DNA from: Clostridia bacterium
Lineage (GTDB): Bacteria > CBDUZB01 > JAGLHV01
DNA: 13,366 nucleotides
Direction of reading: 5' to 3'
NCBI GenBank assembly: GCA_030595925.1
Contig: JAUVLC010000067.1
Span: 1 to 13,366, forward strand
A model generated the notes under the pieces. It worked only from the letters and a program-made list of their open reading frames with translations. It had not been told where the DNA came from and did not search any database. Made by a program: the position numbers and the translations under genes. Numbering within the stretch: the first letter of the stretch is position 1; every line of letters starts with the position of its first letter. This document shows positions 4,371 through 10,323 of the stretch, in pieces.

Positions 4371-4988
4371 CTAAAATCTTACCGGCGTAAAACTAACTGC
4401 ATAAAAAGGATAACTCTTTTCTTCATCTTTACAAATTTTAACTGAAGCATAAGGCATCCATCCCGGAGAAGATTTAGCTATTCCCAAAACCCGAGGTGCT
4501 TCAATAAAACCATAAACCCCGCCTAAAAGAATACCTCCCAGATTGCCCCAGGCAGCACCCCTTCCTATATCATCCGAATTGTTACTCGAACCGTAACTAA
4601 TCAATCCACCGGCTATACCCATAATACCCCCCATCAACGCACCTGATTGCATATCCCGTAAAACCACCGCCCCTGTGCCTGTATAATCTTGAGTAAGCTC
4701 ATAACTTCCTACGGCTAAGCCTAAAACTGTTCCCCCGATGGCTCCATAGCCAAGATGCCGCAGCCCTGTTTTTAAATCTTCTTCATCACTATCGTCTCTA
4801 TCGACAATAGCCAAATACCCGGTGCTTAATCCGGCTAACATCCCAACAAAACACCCCTTCCATCCATAAGAAAACACTGACGGATTTTTTTCTATTTCTC
4901 CGCCAAAAAAAGCGCCCGCTTCTACCTGGGATATAAAAACAAAATTATAACATAAAACTAACAACAACCCCGCAACGATTTTTTTCAT
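4371..4988 (-). CDS. Exported glycine-rich protein of unknown function
   Basis: I do not recognise a named family for this 205-aa protein. It begins with a typical Sec signal peptide (MKKIVAGLLLVL.., likely cleavage after VEA at about residue 24). Alternating glycine-rich hydrophobic stretches follow: GCFVGMLAGLSTGYLAI, GYGAIGGTVLGLAVGSYEL, GALMGGIMGIAGGLISYG and NLGGILLGGVYGF. These resemble glycine-zipper membrane segments and are separated by acidic or polar loops (DRDDSDEEDLK, SSNNSDD). It ends in an aromatic residue (FTPVRF), as many outer-membrane proteins do, but no beta-barrel pattern is obvious. The start is supported by AGGAGGGA about 7 bases upstream of the ATG and by a promoter at 5034-5062. 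It is the first gene of the transcript that continues into the LKR-like enzyme. An envelope location is likely. Confidence 0.8.
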   Translation of the reverse strand: MKKIVAGLLLVLCYNFVFISQVEAGAFFGGEIEKNPSVFSYGWKGCFVGMLAGLSTGYLAIVDRDDSDEEDLKTGLRHLGYGAIGGTVLGLAVGSYELTQDYTGTGAVVLRDMQSGALMGGIMGIAGGLISYGSSNNSDDIGRGAAWGNLGGILLGGVYGFIEAPRVLGIAKSSPGWMPYASVKICKDEEKSYPFYAVSFTPVRF

Positions 4989-5033
4989 ATAACTTCCCTC
5001 CTCTTAATAAAAATCTCTACCTTGTCGATATAT

Positions 5034-5062
5034 AGTTTATATGGACAACTTAAAAAAGTCAA
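5034..5062 (-). promoter_or_regulatory. Probable promoter of the exported protein-LKR operon
   Basis: On the minus strand, TTGACT (5062-5057), 17 bases, then TAAACT (5039-5034). It lies immediately after the terminator of the preceding unit and about 45 bases before the ATG. The -10 is imperfect, and alternative AT-rich hexamers (TATAAA, TATATA) overlap it. Confidence 0.5.
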
Positions 5063-5069
5063 TAAAAAA

Positions 5070-5103
5070 AAGCAATCCGCCAATAATTATTGGCGGATTG
5101 CTT
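5070..5103 (-). terminator. Intrinsic terminator of the CsgG-like gene
   Basis: This is a perfect 34-bp palindrome with two 17-base arms (AAGCAATCCGCCAATAA and its complement). On the minus strand it runs directly into a run of eight T residues. It sits 45 bases past the stop codon of the CsgG-like gene and just ahead of the next promoter, a textbook Rho-independent terminator in the minus direction. There is also an A-rich run on the other side, but no plus-strand gene enters it. Confidence 0.9.
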
Positions 5104-5147
5104 AATATCCATCTATTTAATCATCCTTATAAAGTTTTATGCTTATT

Positions 5148-6089
5148 TTAATTAACATTAACTAATTTACAAAGGTCTCCACGGACAGGCAGGGTCCCTT
5201 TCACTAATTTAGCCACAGCGGCATCTTCCCCAATATAACTTTCAACCCTGATTACTCCTATTTCTTTTTGAGTACGCCCAATAACCAAACCTGTAGTCGG
5301 GCTAATTATTTCCTTACCCAAATGAAACAATTTTAAGCTAGTACCTATTTCCAATCCTGATTCACGCCCGGCATCAATATATATGTCCCGATTTATAATT
5401 TCCGCTATCCGGCAAGACCACGGTTTTTTATTAACCTGGGAAACGATATTATCCACAAACTTTACTATTGCCGCTCTTAATGCTTCTCCTTCCAGTGTCT
5501 CATCATATTTTGCTTTTGTTCCCAAACCTAAAAATTTACCGGTTTTCTGCCTGGCCATTCCTTTGCCTGAATCTGTATACAAAATCTGCCCTGTTTCCAC
5601 ATCTACTACCCTGATATCAACTGAAGCCTGAGCAATTGTCTGTTTGCTTTGAATTATTAAATAATCCGATCCGCCCTTCTTAACTCCAAATTGAGAAATA
5701 CTACCGGTTACTATTGCATTTACTCCCAAAATTTTCCCTACTTTTACTATTGTATTAGAATCTACATGTCCACTAGCTTGAAAATTCTGTTCTTCTAAAA
5801 GTTTTTTTATTTTCCCTCTTTCTACCAAAATAAATTTACCGGTTTTTCCCAATTCAGTAATCAGAATATCAGAAGCTGCCGTACCCAATCTTCTTTGCCC
5901 ATACGCTGTTTTATTTTCAAAATCGATAATAGCAACCCTGCGCTTTGGTCCGGTATATTTAGATTCTACCTTTTCTGTCTCCTTAACGGTAGTAGTGTGT
6001 GTTTTTTTCACTGCAACCGAAGGGGCACAACCCGAAACCAATAAACCTAAACAACATCCTGAAATAACAATCTGTTTCAATCTTTCCAT
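5148..6089 (-). CDS. CsgG/HfaB-family outer-membrane lipoprotein
   Basis: This 313-aa protein has a lipoprotein signal peptide with lipobox LVSGC; Cys21 should be lipidated, and no aspartate follows it, which suits outer-membrane sorting. A threonine- and charge-rich linker (22-48) leads to a CsgG-type domain at about 50-220: RRVAIIDFENKTAYGQRRLG, ILITELGKTGKFILVERGKI, LGVNAIVTGSISQFG, ASVDIRVVDVETGQILYT. A C-terminal beta-rich module at 226-310 (INRDIYIDAGRESGLEIG..) resembles the domain after CsgG-like regions in FlgT-type proteins. CsgG itself is a curli secretion pore, but no csgA, csgB, csgE or csgF is present here, so a general envelope role is likelier. The start follows AAGGAGGT. The gene lies 150 bases downstream of the GNA1162-like lipoprotein gene and ends before a strong terminator, so both may be read together. 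Confidence 0.87.
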   Translation of the reverse strand: MERLKQIVISGCCLGLLVSGCAPSVAVKKTHTTTVKETEKVESKYTGPKRRVAIIDFENKTAYGQRRLGTAASDILITELGKTGKFILVERGKIKKLLEEQNFQASGHVDSNTIVKVGKILGVNAIVTGSISQFGVKKGGSDYLIIQSKQTIAQASVDIRVVDVETGQILYTDSGKGMARQKTGKFLGLGTKAKYDETLEGEALRAAIVKFVDNIVSQVNKKPWSCRIAEIINRDIYIDAGRESGLEIGTSLKLFHLGKEIISPTTGLVIGRTQKEIGVIRVESYIGEDAAVAKLVKGTLPVRGDLCKLVNVN

Positions 6090-6239
6090 CTTTACCTCCT
6101 TAATTTATAAAATTTATACTTATACAAAATAGCTTTTTCGCCTCGTTTCCTGTCCTCTGATCCACAAAGAGAACTGACCACGCAAAACATGTATATTTTG
6201 TGAAATTCTTTATAAAAGCAAAAACATTTTATCTATTAT

Positions 6240-6878
6240 TTACCAATTATTAGGCGGAAAGGTTCTTAATACCTTTCTTACTACTTTTATTGTCTCTTCC
6301 CGGAGAGGAAAAGATAAAATTTTCTCCATTGCTTTTTCCTTTAACTGCTCGGCAAATGCTTTTCCTATATCTTCAAAAACAATTTTAGTACGAGAAGCCT
6401 TTTTCTCTTTTATCCAAATTACTGCTCCGGTTTTTGCATTTACCAACTTGAATTCAGCCCTTACCAGCCTTTTCATATAAACCCCTATGGTTACATAAGA
6501 AAAATCTATTACTTCCCCATAAATAACTCCATCGACATTAAGGCCTTTTCCCAAGTCTTCAATGGAAATAGCCGGTAATTGTCCCGCATCATTTATCCCT
6601 TCACCAGCAAGAAAACTGTCTATTTCTTTTAAAGGTTTTAAAATATATCCTCTTCTTCCGGAAAGATGGTTATTAAAAATTTCTCTTAACCTTTCCGGTG
6701 CATCTATATCATTTGATTGATTAGTAAAAGGCAATACCGCTATAGTTTTAGGAGGTAAAAGAGGATCTACCCGAATAGGCCTCCTGGGTGAAACAGCACA
6801 CCCACTAATAAGGATTAGAACAATAAGGCTCACGAAGAAATATCTAAATCTACTTTTAATGATATTCACACCCTGCAT
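6240..6878 (-). CDS. GNA1162/DUF799-like lipoprotein
   Basis: This is a 212-aa lipoprotein with signal anchor YFFVSLIVLILISGCAV; Cys27 is the likely lipidated residue. The mature part opens with the pattern typical of GNA1162/DUF799 and CsgG-related lipoproteins: PKTIAVLPFTNQSNDIDAPERLRE. GLNVDGVIYGEVIDFSYV and a C-terminal beta-rich section (EFKLVNAKTGAVIWIKEKK) follow. The frame is open back to a TTG at 6902, but ATG at 6878 has AAGGAG nine bases upstream. The promoter at 6918-6947 would start RNA near 6911, leaving the TTG almost leaderless, so 6878 is chosen. Its domain resembles the N-terminal part of the downstream CsgG-like protein. A role in envelope assembly is family inference and the substrate is unknown. 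Confidence 0.78.
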   Translation of the reverse strand: MQGVNIIKSRFRYFFVSLIVLILISGCAVSPRRPIRVDPLLPPKTIAVLPFTNQSNDIDAPERLREIFNNHLSGRRGYILKPLKEIDSFLAGEGINDAGQLPAISIEDLGKGLNVDGVIYGEVIDFSYVTIGVYMKRLVRAEFKLVNAKTGAVIWIKEKKASRTKIVFEDIGKAFAEQLKEKAMEKILSFPLREETIKVVRKVLRTFPPNNW

Positions 6879-6917
6879 GCAACACATCTCCTTCATTACC
6901 AAATTTTTCTTTTACTC

Positions 6918-7630: not shown

Positions 7631-8629
7631 ATGTCTATGCTCAAGATACTACGCAGAATGGAATCATTAGATGAAAATGAAAAAATAGTAATTTTGGACT
7701 TAGAAGGGTTTATTGACACATCAACCACTCATATTTTACGAGAAGCATTCGAAAATCTTGTTCAAAATAAAATTTATAAAATAATTGTGAATTTTGAAAA
7801 AATATCTTATCTTAGTAGTACGGGCATAGGAGTTTTTGTTGAATTCATCGGAACTATTAGAGAAAACATGGGAAATATTATAATAATCAAAGTTTCTGAC
7901 AAAATTAAAAAAGTTATTACTATAGCCGGCATTGAAAAAATAATTAAAATTTTCCCTACCGAACAAATCGCCAAAGATGCACTTATCACAGAGAAAGAAA
8001 TATTAAACGAAAAAAAATCCTCTTTTAATAAATCAGTACAATTTCCTTTTAAAAAAGAATGCCCTTTTTGTAAAGAAATTTCATGGATTCCTCAGTCTGA
8101 TATTTTGCGTTGCCCTAAATGCAAAGAAATTTTTTACATTACTAAACAAGGAGATATTACCCCTTTAAAGAAATCAGACAAAGAACAAGAGGCAATAAAC
8201 CAATATAAATTTAATCTTAGAATACCCAGCAACATTAATTATCTTAATTATGTCCGCCTTTTTTTAACCGGATTACTTAGAGAAGAAAAAATCACAGAAG
8301 AAATCACAAACGACATAGAATTAGCTGTAGATGAAGCTCTTTCTAACATTGTAGAACACGCCTATAACTTCGAAAAACATCACACGATTGACCTTTCTTT
8401 TTATATTGTACCCGGCTCTTGTTTTGTTATTACTCTTAAGGATAAAGGTAACTCCCTCGATACCATTTTACATAGATTAAAAAGCGGAGTTATGGATGAC
8501 GCAATCCCTATTCACCAGGAAAGAGGACGGGGATTCTATATTATAAATAAAACTATGGACAAAATAGATTATCAAACAGTAGCAAATTTTGGCAATGAAC
8601 TAACAATGGTTAAACACTTTCCAAAATAA
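7631..8629 (+). CDS. STAS-zinc ribbon-HATPase fusion (anti-sigma antagonist plus anti-sigma kinase)
   Basis: This 332-aa cytosolic protein has three parts. Residues 16-118 are a STAS domain like SpoIIAA/RsbV; the phospho-acceptor loop reads YLSSTGIGVFV, with Thr64 or Ser63 at the phosphorylation site. Residues 144-164 hold two CPxC pairs (C144, C147, C161, C164), a probable zinc ribbon. Residues about 195-332 are an RsbW/SpoIIAB-type GHKL ATPase: N-box DIELAVDEALSNIVEHAY with E235 and N239, G1 motif DKG (271-273), and G2 motif ERGRGF (297-302). In known partner-switching systems the STAS antagonist and kinase are separate proteins that bind and phosphorylate one another. Here both are on one chain. 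The frame is open to a TTG at 7601, but ATG 7631 follows GAGG with an 8-base spacer. No sigma factor or PP2C phosphatase is seen nearby. Its target is unknown. Confidence 0.86.
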   Translation: MSMLKILRRMESLDENEKIVILDLEGFIDTSTTHILREAFENLVQNKIYKIIVNFEKISYLSSTGIGVFVEFIGTIRENMGNIIIIKVSDKIKKVITIAGIEKIIKIFPTEQIAKDALITEKEILNEKKSSFNKSVQFPFKKECPFCKEISWIPQSDILRCPKCKEIFYITKQGDITPLKKSDKEQEAINQYKFNLRIPSNINYLNYVRLFLTGLLREEKITEEITNDIELAVDEALSNIVEHAYNFEKHHTIDLSFYIVPGSCFVITLKDKGNSLDTILHRLKSGVMDDAIPIHQERGRGFYIINKTMDKIDYQTVANFGNELTMVKHFPK

Positions 8630-8636
8630 TGAACTA

Positions 8637-8656
8637 CCCCGCAGTTTACTGCGGGG
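8637..8656. repeat. GC-rich hairpin after the STAS-ATPase gene
   Basis: CCCCGCAG (8637-8644), TTTA loop, CTGCGGGG (8649-8656): a perfect 8-bp stem starting 8 bases after the stop codon. Neither side has a T run, so it is not a classical intrinsic terminator. It could still pause polymerase or protect the mRNA 3' end. Its CCCCGC..GCGGGG stem is close to that of the hairpin at 13236-13253, suggesting one element family. Confidence 0.7.
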
Positions 8657-8716
8657 AATCGAAGATTTATCCCATATAAATTTTGAGTGGTAAAATACGG
8701 GATAATTAAACCCGAA

Positions 8717-8798
8717 ACCCTTCGACTCCATGCAAGGGAGTTCATGGTGAGTCTTTCGACTACACTCAAGATAAACTCAGCCGAAGTGCTCAGGGTCA
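8717..8798. repeat. Dispersed-type CTTCGACT/CTCAGGGT repeat
   Basis: The gap between the STAS-ATPase and TPR genes contains ACCCTTCGACTCC (8717-8729), then TTCGACTACACTCAAGATAA (from 8755), then CCGAAGTGCTCAGGGTC (8780-8796). The pieces are related to each other in direct and inverted form (CTTCGACT versus CCGAAG, and ACCC..GGGT ends). It is higher in GC than its flanks and looks like a degenerate copy of a dispersed palindromic intergenic element. Copy number elsewhere cannot be seen here. Confidence 0.5.
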
Positions 8799-8898
8799 AT
8801 TCAACTACAGAGTTTTTGTCAGCATAGCTAAAAAAACTCTAAGTCTCATTGAATTAAAAACGATTTAAATTAATCCCAGGAAATGGAAATTCGATAAA

Positions 8899-10323
8899 AT
8901 GAATAAAACACTTTCTCCGGCTGTTCAACAACTTATTTCTTCAGCTGAATCTTTAGAAAATGACGGCAAAATAAGCGAAGCTTTTTTTAAGTATGAAGAA
9001 ATAATAGAGGCTATTTTATTTCTTGATGATGAAGATGAAATAAAAGAAATCTACAAAAAAATAAGCCACCTTAATTCCAGCAAATTTAATAATACAAAAC
9101 AAAAAAAACGGCAGCTTATATTTATAGACATCCTTAAAGCAGAAAACCTTTATCAACAAGGTTTAATTGATGCAACATTAAAAATATTGGAGGAAATTAA
9201 AAAAGAATACCCCTCTAATCCGGAAGTATTAACTAAAATGGGTTCTATTTATGAACGGCAAAATCAAAAAGAAAAAGCAATAGAGAATTATTTTGCAGCA
9301 GCAAAATATTATCATAATCATCGTTTTTTTAAAAAAGCACTTTTTTTTGCCCAAAAAGCAAAAAACATCGCCCCCCAAAAAAAAGAAATAAAAATTCTTC
9401 TTTCCGAAATTTATATAAAAGGAGACTCAAGAGAAGAAGCCCGCAAAGAATTAATTGATCTGATTAAAAATTTAATTCAACAAAATGACTTTAATGAAGC
9501 ATTAAAATATGTCCAAAAAGCACTTCAAGTCGACGGGATTGAAACACTTTATTTAGAAGGTATTATTTGGTTCCACAAGGAATTATTAGAAGCCGCCGAG
9601 CAAAAATTTAAACTTGTAACCAGATTAAAAGGCGGACACTTTGGTTCTCTTTGTTATTTAGGGGAAATACATTTAAAACAAAAATTATTTCAGCAAGCAT
9701 TTGATGATTATCAAAAAGCATTTACACTCCGGCCATGGGACCCTCAAATCTATCATAAATTAGCAGAAATAAACTTGCAAAAAGAAGAAGGGGATTTACC
9801 CCCTTCAGAAAAACCAGAAATTGAATCACCCAGTGTTGTTCCTCCATCCAAAACAGAAGAATCTTTTTTACCGTTTGACTCATCTCCCCGTGTTTCTCCC
9901 GAGGAAGAAAGTTCTCCCGAGAAAGAAAGTTCTTCCGAGGAAATGCAAACTTATTTAATTGAATCTGAATTTGCAATGCATGAAGAAAAATCCCTTTCCG
10001 AAATGAAAGGGCTATATGAATTTGCCATTAGCCTGGAACCAACAAATGATAAAATAGTAAAAAAATTGCAGGCAATAAAAATGTTTCAAAAAGAAAAAGG
10101 AGAAACCCATAAAAAATTAAAAATAATAAATAAAAATTTTGACGATGAATTTTGGCCGTTATCGATTGTGGAAATCGCCGAATTCCCATTTTTACTTAAA
10201 AAAGTTATTGCTTTATACCGTTCTTTCCTGGAAAATTCTTCAGACAACGAACTATTAAACAGATTAAATAAAGTTCAGTTACTAAGCAATAAAAACTATT
10301 TAGATTTAAAAATAACTTCTTGA
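8899..10323 (+). CDS. Cytoplasmic tetratricopeptide-repeat protein
   Basis: This is a 474-aa protein without signal peptide or membrane segment. Residues about 78-295 form a run of TPR-like helix pairs, for example AENLYQQGLIDATLKILEEI, LTKMGSIYERQNQKEKAIEN, ALKYVQKALQ, and CYLGEIHLKQKLFQQAFDDY ending in a typical TLRPWDPQIYHKLAEI. Residues 297-349 are a proline-, serine- and glutamate-rich linker with short SSPE/ESSSEE repeats. The C-terminus (about 350-474) is helical and charged, with no recognised domain. TPR arrays are protein-binding scaffolds. It follows the STAS-ATPase gene in the same direction after a 269-base repeat-bearing gap, so joint function is possible but unproven. The ribosome binding site is weak (AGGAAATGG well upstream), so the start is tentative. 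Confidence 0.82.
   Translation: MNKTLSPAVQQLISSAESLENDGKISEAFFKYEEIIEAILFLDDEDEIKEIYKKISHLNSSKFNNTKQKKRQLIFIDILKAENLYQQGLIDATLKILEEIKKEYPSNPEVLTKMGSIYERQNQKEKAIENYFAAAKYYHNHRFFKKALFFAQKAKNIAPQKKEIKILLSEIYIKGDSREEARKELIDLIKNLIQQNDFNEALKYVQKALQVDGIETLYLEGIIWFHKELLEAAEQKFKLVTRLKGGHFGSLCYLGEIHLKQKLFQQAFDDYQKAFTLRPWDPQIYHKLAEINLQKEEGDLPPSEKPEIESPSVVPPSKTEESFLPFDSSPRVSPEEESSPEKESSSEEMQTYLIESEFAMHEEKSLSEMKGLYEFAISLEPTNDKIVKKLQAIKMFQKEKGETHKKLKIINKNFDDEFWPLSIVEIAEFPFLLKKVIALYRSFLENSSDNELLNRLNKVQLLSNKNYLDLKITS

Follow-up and report, generated by a model that had tools for sequence, protein, structure and literature searches.

The partner-switching pairs RsbV/RsbW and SpoIIAA/SpoIIAB consist of two chains, a STAS protein with a phosphorylatable serine in its loop and a separate kinase. 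The M. tuberculosis protein Rv1364c combines a kinase and an antagonist domain on one chain, and the antagonist domain is reported to be both autophosphorylated and autodephosphorylated (PMC7693655; PMC12143880). As described there, the chain includes a PAS sensor and a PP2C phosphatase in addition, its antagonist domain follows the kinase, and the description contains no zinc module. The SiaABC system of Pseudomonas aeruginosa comprises a HAMP-PP2C membrane phosphatase, a kinase and a STAS-like target, and its described output is not a sigma factor (PMC7647112).

The window, i.e., the whole 13,366-nucleotide stretch of DNA analysed, encodes at 7631..8629 (plus strand, as for all parts of this gene given below) a protein of 332 amino acids with an ATG start, in which a STAS domain, a four-cysteine (Cys4) module and a HATPase_c_2 kinase domain follow one another, as supported by the open reading frame, the Pfam matches and the orthologues. 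The fusion shares with RsbV/RsbW and SpoIIAA/SpoIIAB both domains, the phosphorylatable serine and the kinase-site residues, but it is one chain rather than two, has the Cys4 module in between and adjoins no sigma factor. Relative to Rv1364c as described, the domain order is reversed, the PAS and PP2C domains are absent and the Cys4 module is added. On balance, we favour the interpretation that the fusion is an RsbV/RsbW-like pair on a single chain, regulated by phosphorylation of Ser63, containing a zinc module, reset by a SpoIIE-type phosphatase and acting on a client other than a sigma-B/F factor.

The STAS domain (residues 14–112, 7670..7966) scored 59.4 bits against a curated cut-off of 22.6 (PF01740, E 3.3e-16), aligned with the SpoIIAA structures and fell within the anti-sigma-factor-antagonist superfamily (NCBIfam TIGR00377, 71.9 against a cut-off of 53.45). 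The C-terminal HATPase_c_2 (GHKL) domain of the RsbW/SpoIIAB type (residues 199–328, 8225..8614) reached 80.7 bits against a curated cut-off of 27.4 (PF13581, E 1.2e-22) and aligned with the RsbW and SpoIIAB structures, so that the sequence-only reading of a STAS domain and a GHKL ATPase on one chain is borne out. These two were the only Pfam domains over cut-off within the 332 residues, with no PAS sensor or PP2C phosphatase among them. Since the kinase domain stayed below the NCBIfam equivalog cut-offs for both RsbW (71.7 against 145) and SpoIIAB (45.7 against 135), it is, judged by these profiles, a relative of the two rather than a named member of either.

Alignment to the SpoIIAA structures placed Ser58, the SpoIIAA phosphosite, opposite Ser63 of the fusion (codon at 7817..7819), and Ser59 opposite Thr64; the predicted phosphorylation site is therefore one residue away from Thr64, the position initially proposed. 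Structural alignment likewise matched R20, E46 and N50 of SpoIIAB, which serve partner binding, catalysis and magnesium binding, respectively, to R209, E235 and N239. The N, G1 and G2 boxes had been described as intact, and all three were found, as E235 with N239, D271xG273, and G299/G301 within ERGRGF. The kinase site thus looks complete at the residue level, although RsbW homologues that have the same fold and no kinase activity are known (PMC7693655). An AlphaFold2 model built from a three-row alignment had a mean pLDDT of 58, too low to judge the geometry between Ser63 and the ATP site or the zinc fold.

Between the two domains, a variable linker (residues 114–140, 7970..8050) leads into the Cys4 module (residues 141–172, 8051..8146), which holds four of the five cysteines of the protein as CPFC (144/147) and CPKC (161/164) in the layout CPxC-x13-CPxC (144–164). 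A CxxC-x(8–25)-CxxC pattern arose by chance in 11 of 200,000 shuffles of the fusion protein. None of the Pfam zinc-finger or zinc-ribbon models exceeded its cut-off on this stretch (best 20.9 bits against 28.9), and such models easily miss modules this short. The two CPxC pairs of the zinc ribbon initially proposed are thus present, while the name "zinc ribbon" is based on the motif and on how well it is conserved, because no Pfam zinc model reaches its cut-off; the module probably binds zinc.

The organism belongs to a little-known phylum represented by three genomes from a single genus; as the genome set covers about half of the GTDB species, the phylum may extend beyond these. Both other genomes encode full-length orthologues (89% and 77% identity) in which the four cysteines, S63, R209, E235, N239 and the G boxes are invariant. 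Pairwise dN/dS among the three species was 0.07–0.11 for the Cys4 module, 0.11–0.13 for the HATPase domain and 0.15–0.20 for the STAS domain, as compared to 0.17–0.58 for the relaxed linker before the module; the 20-residue linker after it gave 0 to 0.55, a region too short to read. The protein is real and conserved, and both domains and the Cys4 module are under purifying selection. The contrast between the module and the linker preceding it suggests that the module is a real domain, small as these regions are.

This constraint fits a role of the module as a hinge, and it also invites the interpretation that the CPxC pairs change state, through zinc loss or disulphide formation, and thereby control whether the STAS serine can reach the ATP site, so that the fusion would act as a one-chain sensor kinase. 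The invariant cysteines, the strong constraint and the position between the substrate and kinase domains all agree with such a zinc or redox sensor, yet the constraint also fits a structural zinc site, a sample of three congeneric genomes is too narrow to tell these roles apart, and no redox-linked gene was found adjoining the fusion. We consider the sensor unlikely.

Genome searches across about 430 distinct genomes (G000–G429), including a broad search with a strict E-value limit, recovered full-length matches to the fusion, and a Cys module between STAS and kinase domains, in this genus only, and STAS and kinase genes that are separate and adjacent were common. At least four other genomes encode fusions (L016, L083, L084 and L080) that resemble ours in joining a STAS-like N-terminus and a HATPase_c_2 C-terminus in one frame of 260–343 amino acids, but differ in lacking CxxC pairs between the domains; their STAS part exceeds the Pfam cut-off in L016 and L083 and narrowly misses it in L084 and L080, and the phospho-loop appears degenerate in L080, L083 and L084, unlike that of the window fusion. 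In five further candidates (G047:C174, G366, G060, G322 and G107), the genome search assigned the STAS and HATPase hits to one open-frame length; they are not counted as fusions, since reading from stop to stop showed that the kinase half occupies a frame of its own. Phage and plasmid records yielded RsbW-like matches only, confined to the kinase half, and the viral contigs searched gave no match. A contig scan with genus-specific peptide patterns, which says little on other lineages, returned two records, both of the same genus, and a literature search of open-licence papers found no STAS-zinc-kinase fusion. As to whether the architecture had already been characterised, the STAS-kinase fusion is known as a kind, from Rv1364c and from other lineages; the Cys module between the kinase and its substrate domain, seen in this genus only, is the new part.

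The partner-switching inventory of the window genome is small. Two STAS and two HATPase_c_2 proteins exceeded the cut-offs; they are accounted for by the fusion together with a standalone pair located on contig C102. Both relatives have the same pair, its STAS gene being cut by a contig end in G002. By eye, the C102 pair precedes two genes resembling polyamine genes; two genes upstream of it lies a 553-amino-acid protein (L033, 2778–4439) with a weak, below-cut-off match to adenylate/guanylate cyclases. In phylogenetic trees, the kinase domains of the fusion and the C102 pair group weakly (91/84) and the STAS halves do not group, leaving an origin of the fusion from the genus's own standalone pair unsupported.

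The coexistence of the fusion and this pair in all three genomes, along with the weak grouping of their kinase domains, is compatible with wiring in trans, in which the fusion would work mainly with the C102 proteins, for example as a substrate of the C102 kinase or in heterodimers with it, and the linkage would not be used for phosphorylation in cis. However, the fusion retains its serine and a complete kinase site, and the ungrouped STAS halves also speak against this scheme, which we regard as improbable.

Each of the three genomes encodes one SpoIIE-type phosphatase over cut-off, which in the window genome is an sCache-HAMP-SpoIIE protein of 502 amino acids on contig C169, unlinked to the fusion. 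The observation that neither a sigma factor nor a PP2C phosphatase lies nearby holds for the window but not for the phosphatase in the genome as a whole. The parts found here resemble the SiaABC system in comprising a HAMP-containing membrane phosphatase, a kinase and a STAS-type target, and the phosphatase matches the SiaA model, below cut-off; SiaABC differs in consisting of separate proteins encoded in one operon, with Thr68 as the phosphosite, whereas here the phosphatase lies on another contig than the fusion.

A sigma-70 region-2 search of the window genome (97% complete) found five places: a 583-amino-acid frame taken as RpoD, a 275-amino-acid RpoS/RpoD-like factor, and three frames of approximately 200 amino acids. 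No sigma-B/F-type factor was recognised among these five sigma-70 hits, of which the longer frames were compared with SigBFG. In a further reading, the fusion would be a classical anti-sigma factor, and its kinase domain would capture a sigma factor encoded in the same genome, for instance the 275-amino-acid protein or one of the short ones. This would agree with the presence of the 275-amino-acid protein and with R209, the counterpart of SpoIIAB R20, a residue that contacts sigma-F as well as SpoIIAA. Against it, the 275-amino-acid factor scored 122 bits relative to a SigBFG cut-off of 234, the window contains no sigma gene, and none is linked to the fusion. This role is doubtful, and a factor of the sigma-B/F type is improbable as the client.

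Directly downstream of the fusion in all three species lies a gene for a TPR-repeat protein of 474 amino acids (8899..10323, plus strand; TPR models over cut-off; orthologues with 87% and 68% identity); inspection by eye revealed no obvious signal peptide. The distance between the two genes is 269 nt in the window, but 41 nt in G002 and roughly 4 nt in G001. Most of the window gap is taken up by a dispersed repeat (8632–8870), which has 55 matches in the genome and includes a strong hairpin, CCCCGCAGTTTACTGCGGGG, at 8637. From its position, the TPR protein is the best candidate for a client, and possibly a scaffold instead, though the repeat that parts its gene from the fusion in the window argues against such a partnership. 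In another phylum, two loci (L085 5831–8109 and L076 6822–9099) carry STAS and kinase genes followed by a TPR protein that appears lipoprotein-like by eye; their gene order resembles that of the window, and the localisation of the TPR protein there is probably different. Elsewhere in the window, on the minus strand, two small overlapping ORFs at 2326–2839 resemble, by eye, a RelE-type toxin and an antitoxin, and 4371–6902 contains three genes of envelope type, judged by profile match or by eye, encoding CsgG and GNA1162-like lipoproteins (over cut-off) and an unnamed 205-amino-acid protein.

Returning to the one-chain RsbV/RsbW-like switch, it builds on the observed domains, residues, conservation and genome inventory, from which we infer kinase activity, transfer in cis or in trans, zinc binding, pairing with the phosphatase, and the client. 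The most likely reaction is phosphorylation of the STAS residue Ser63 by the C-terminal GHKL domain, either in cis or between the subunits of a homodimer; the reported autophosphorylation of Rv1364c (PMC7693655) makes such a reaction within a single chain plausible. Once phosphorylated, the STAS domain would bind less tightly to the kinase surface around Arg209, leaving that surface free for a client, while the Cys4 module most likely serves as a structural zinc hinge that fixes the geometry between the STAS and kinase domains. The sCache-HAMP-SpoIIE protein would be the likely reset enzyme and signal input, and the separate C102 pair could be its partner instead of the fusion. A composite of these ideas, in which the Cys4 module responds to zinc or to the redox state and so gates autophosphorylation, with the TPR protein rather than a sigma factor as the client, appears very unlikely.

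Overall, these results position the fusion as a compact kinase-substrate pair with a natural tether, in which phosphorylation in cis could be measured without mixing two proteins. The lineage it occurs in has very few partner-switching components, namely two STAS proteins, two RsbW-type kinases and one SpoIIE phosphatase. If the TPR protein is indeed the client, the system would be a further case of partner switching with an output other than a sigma factor.
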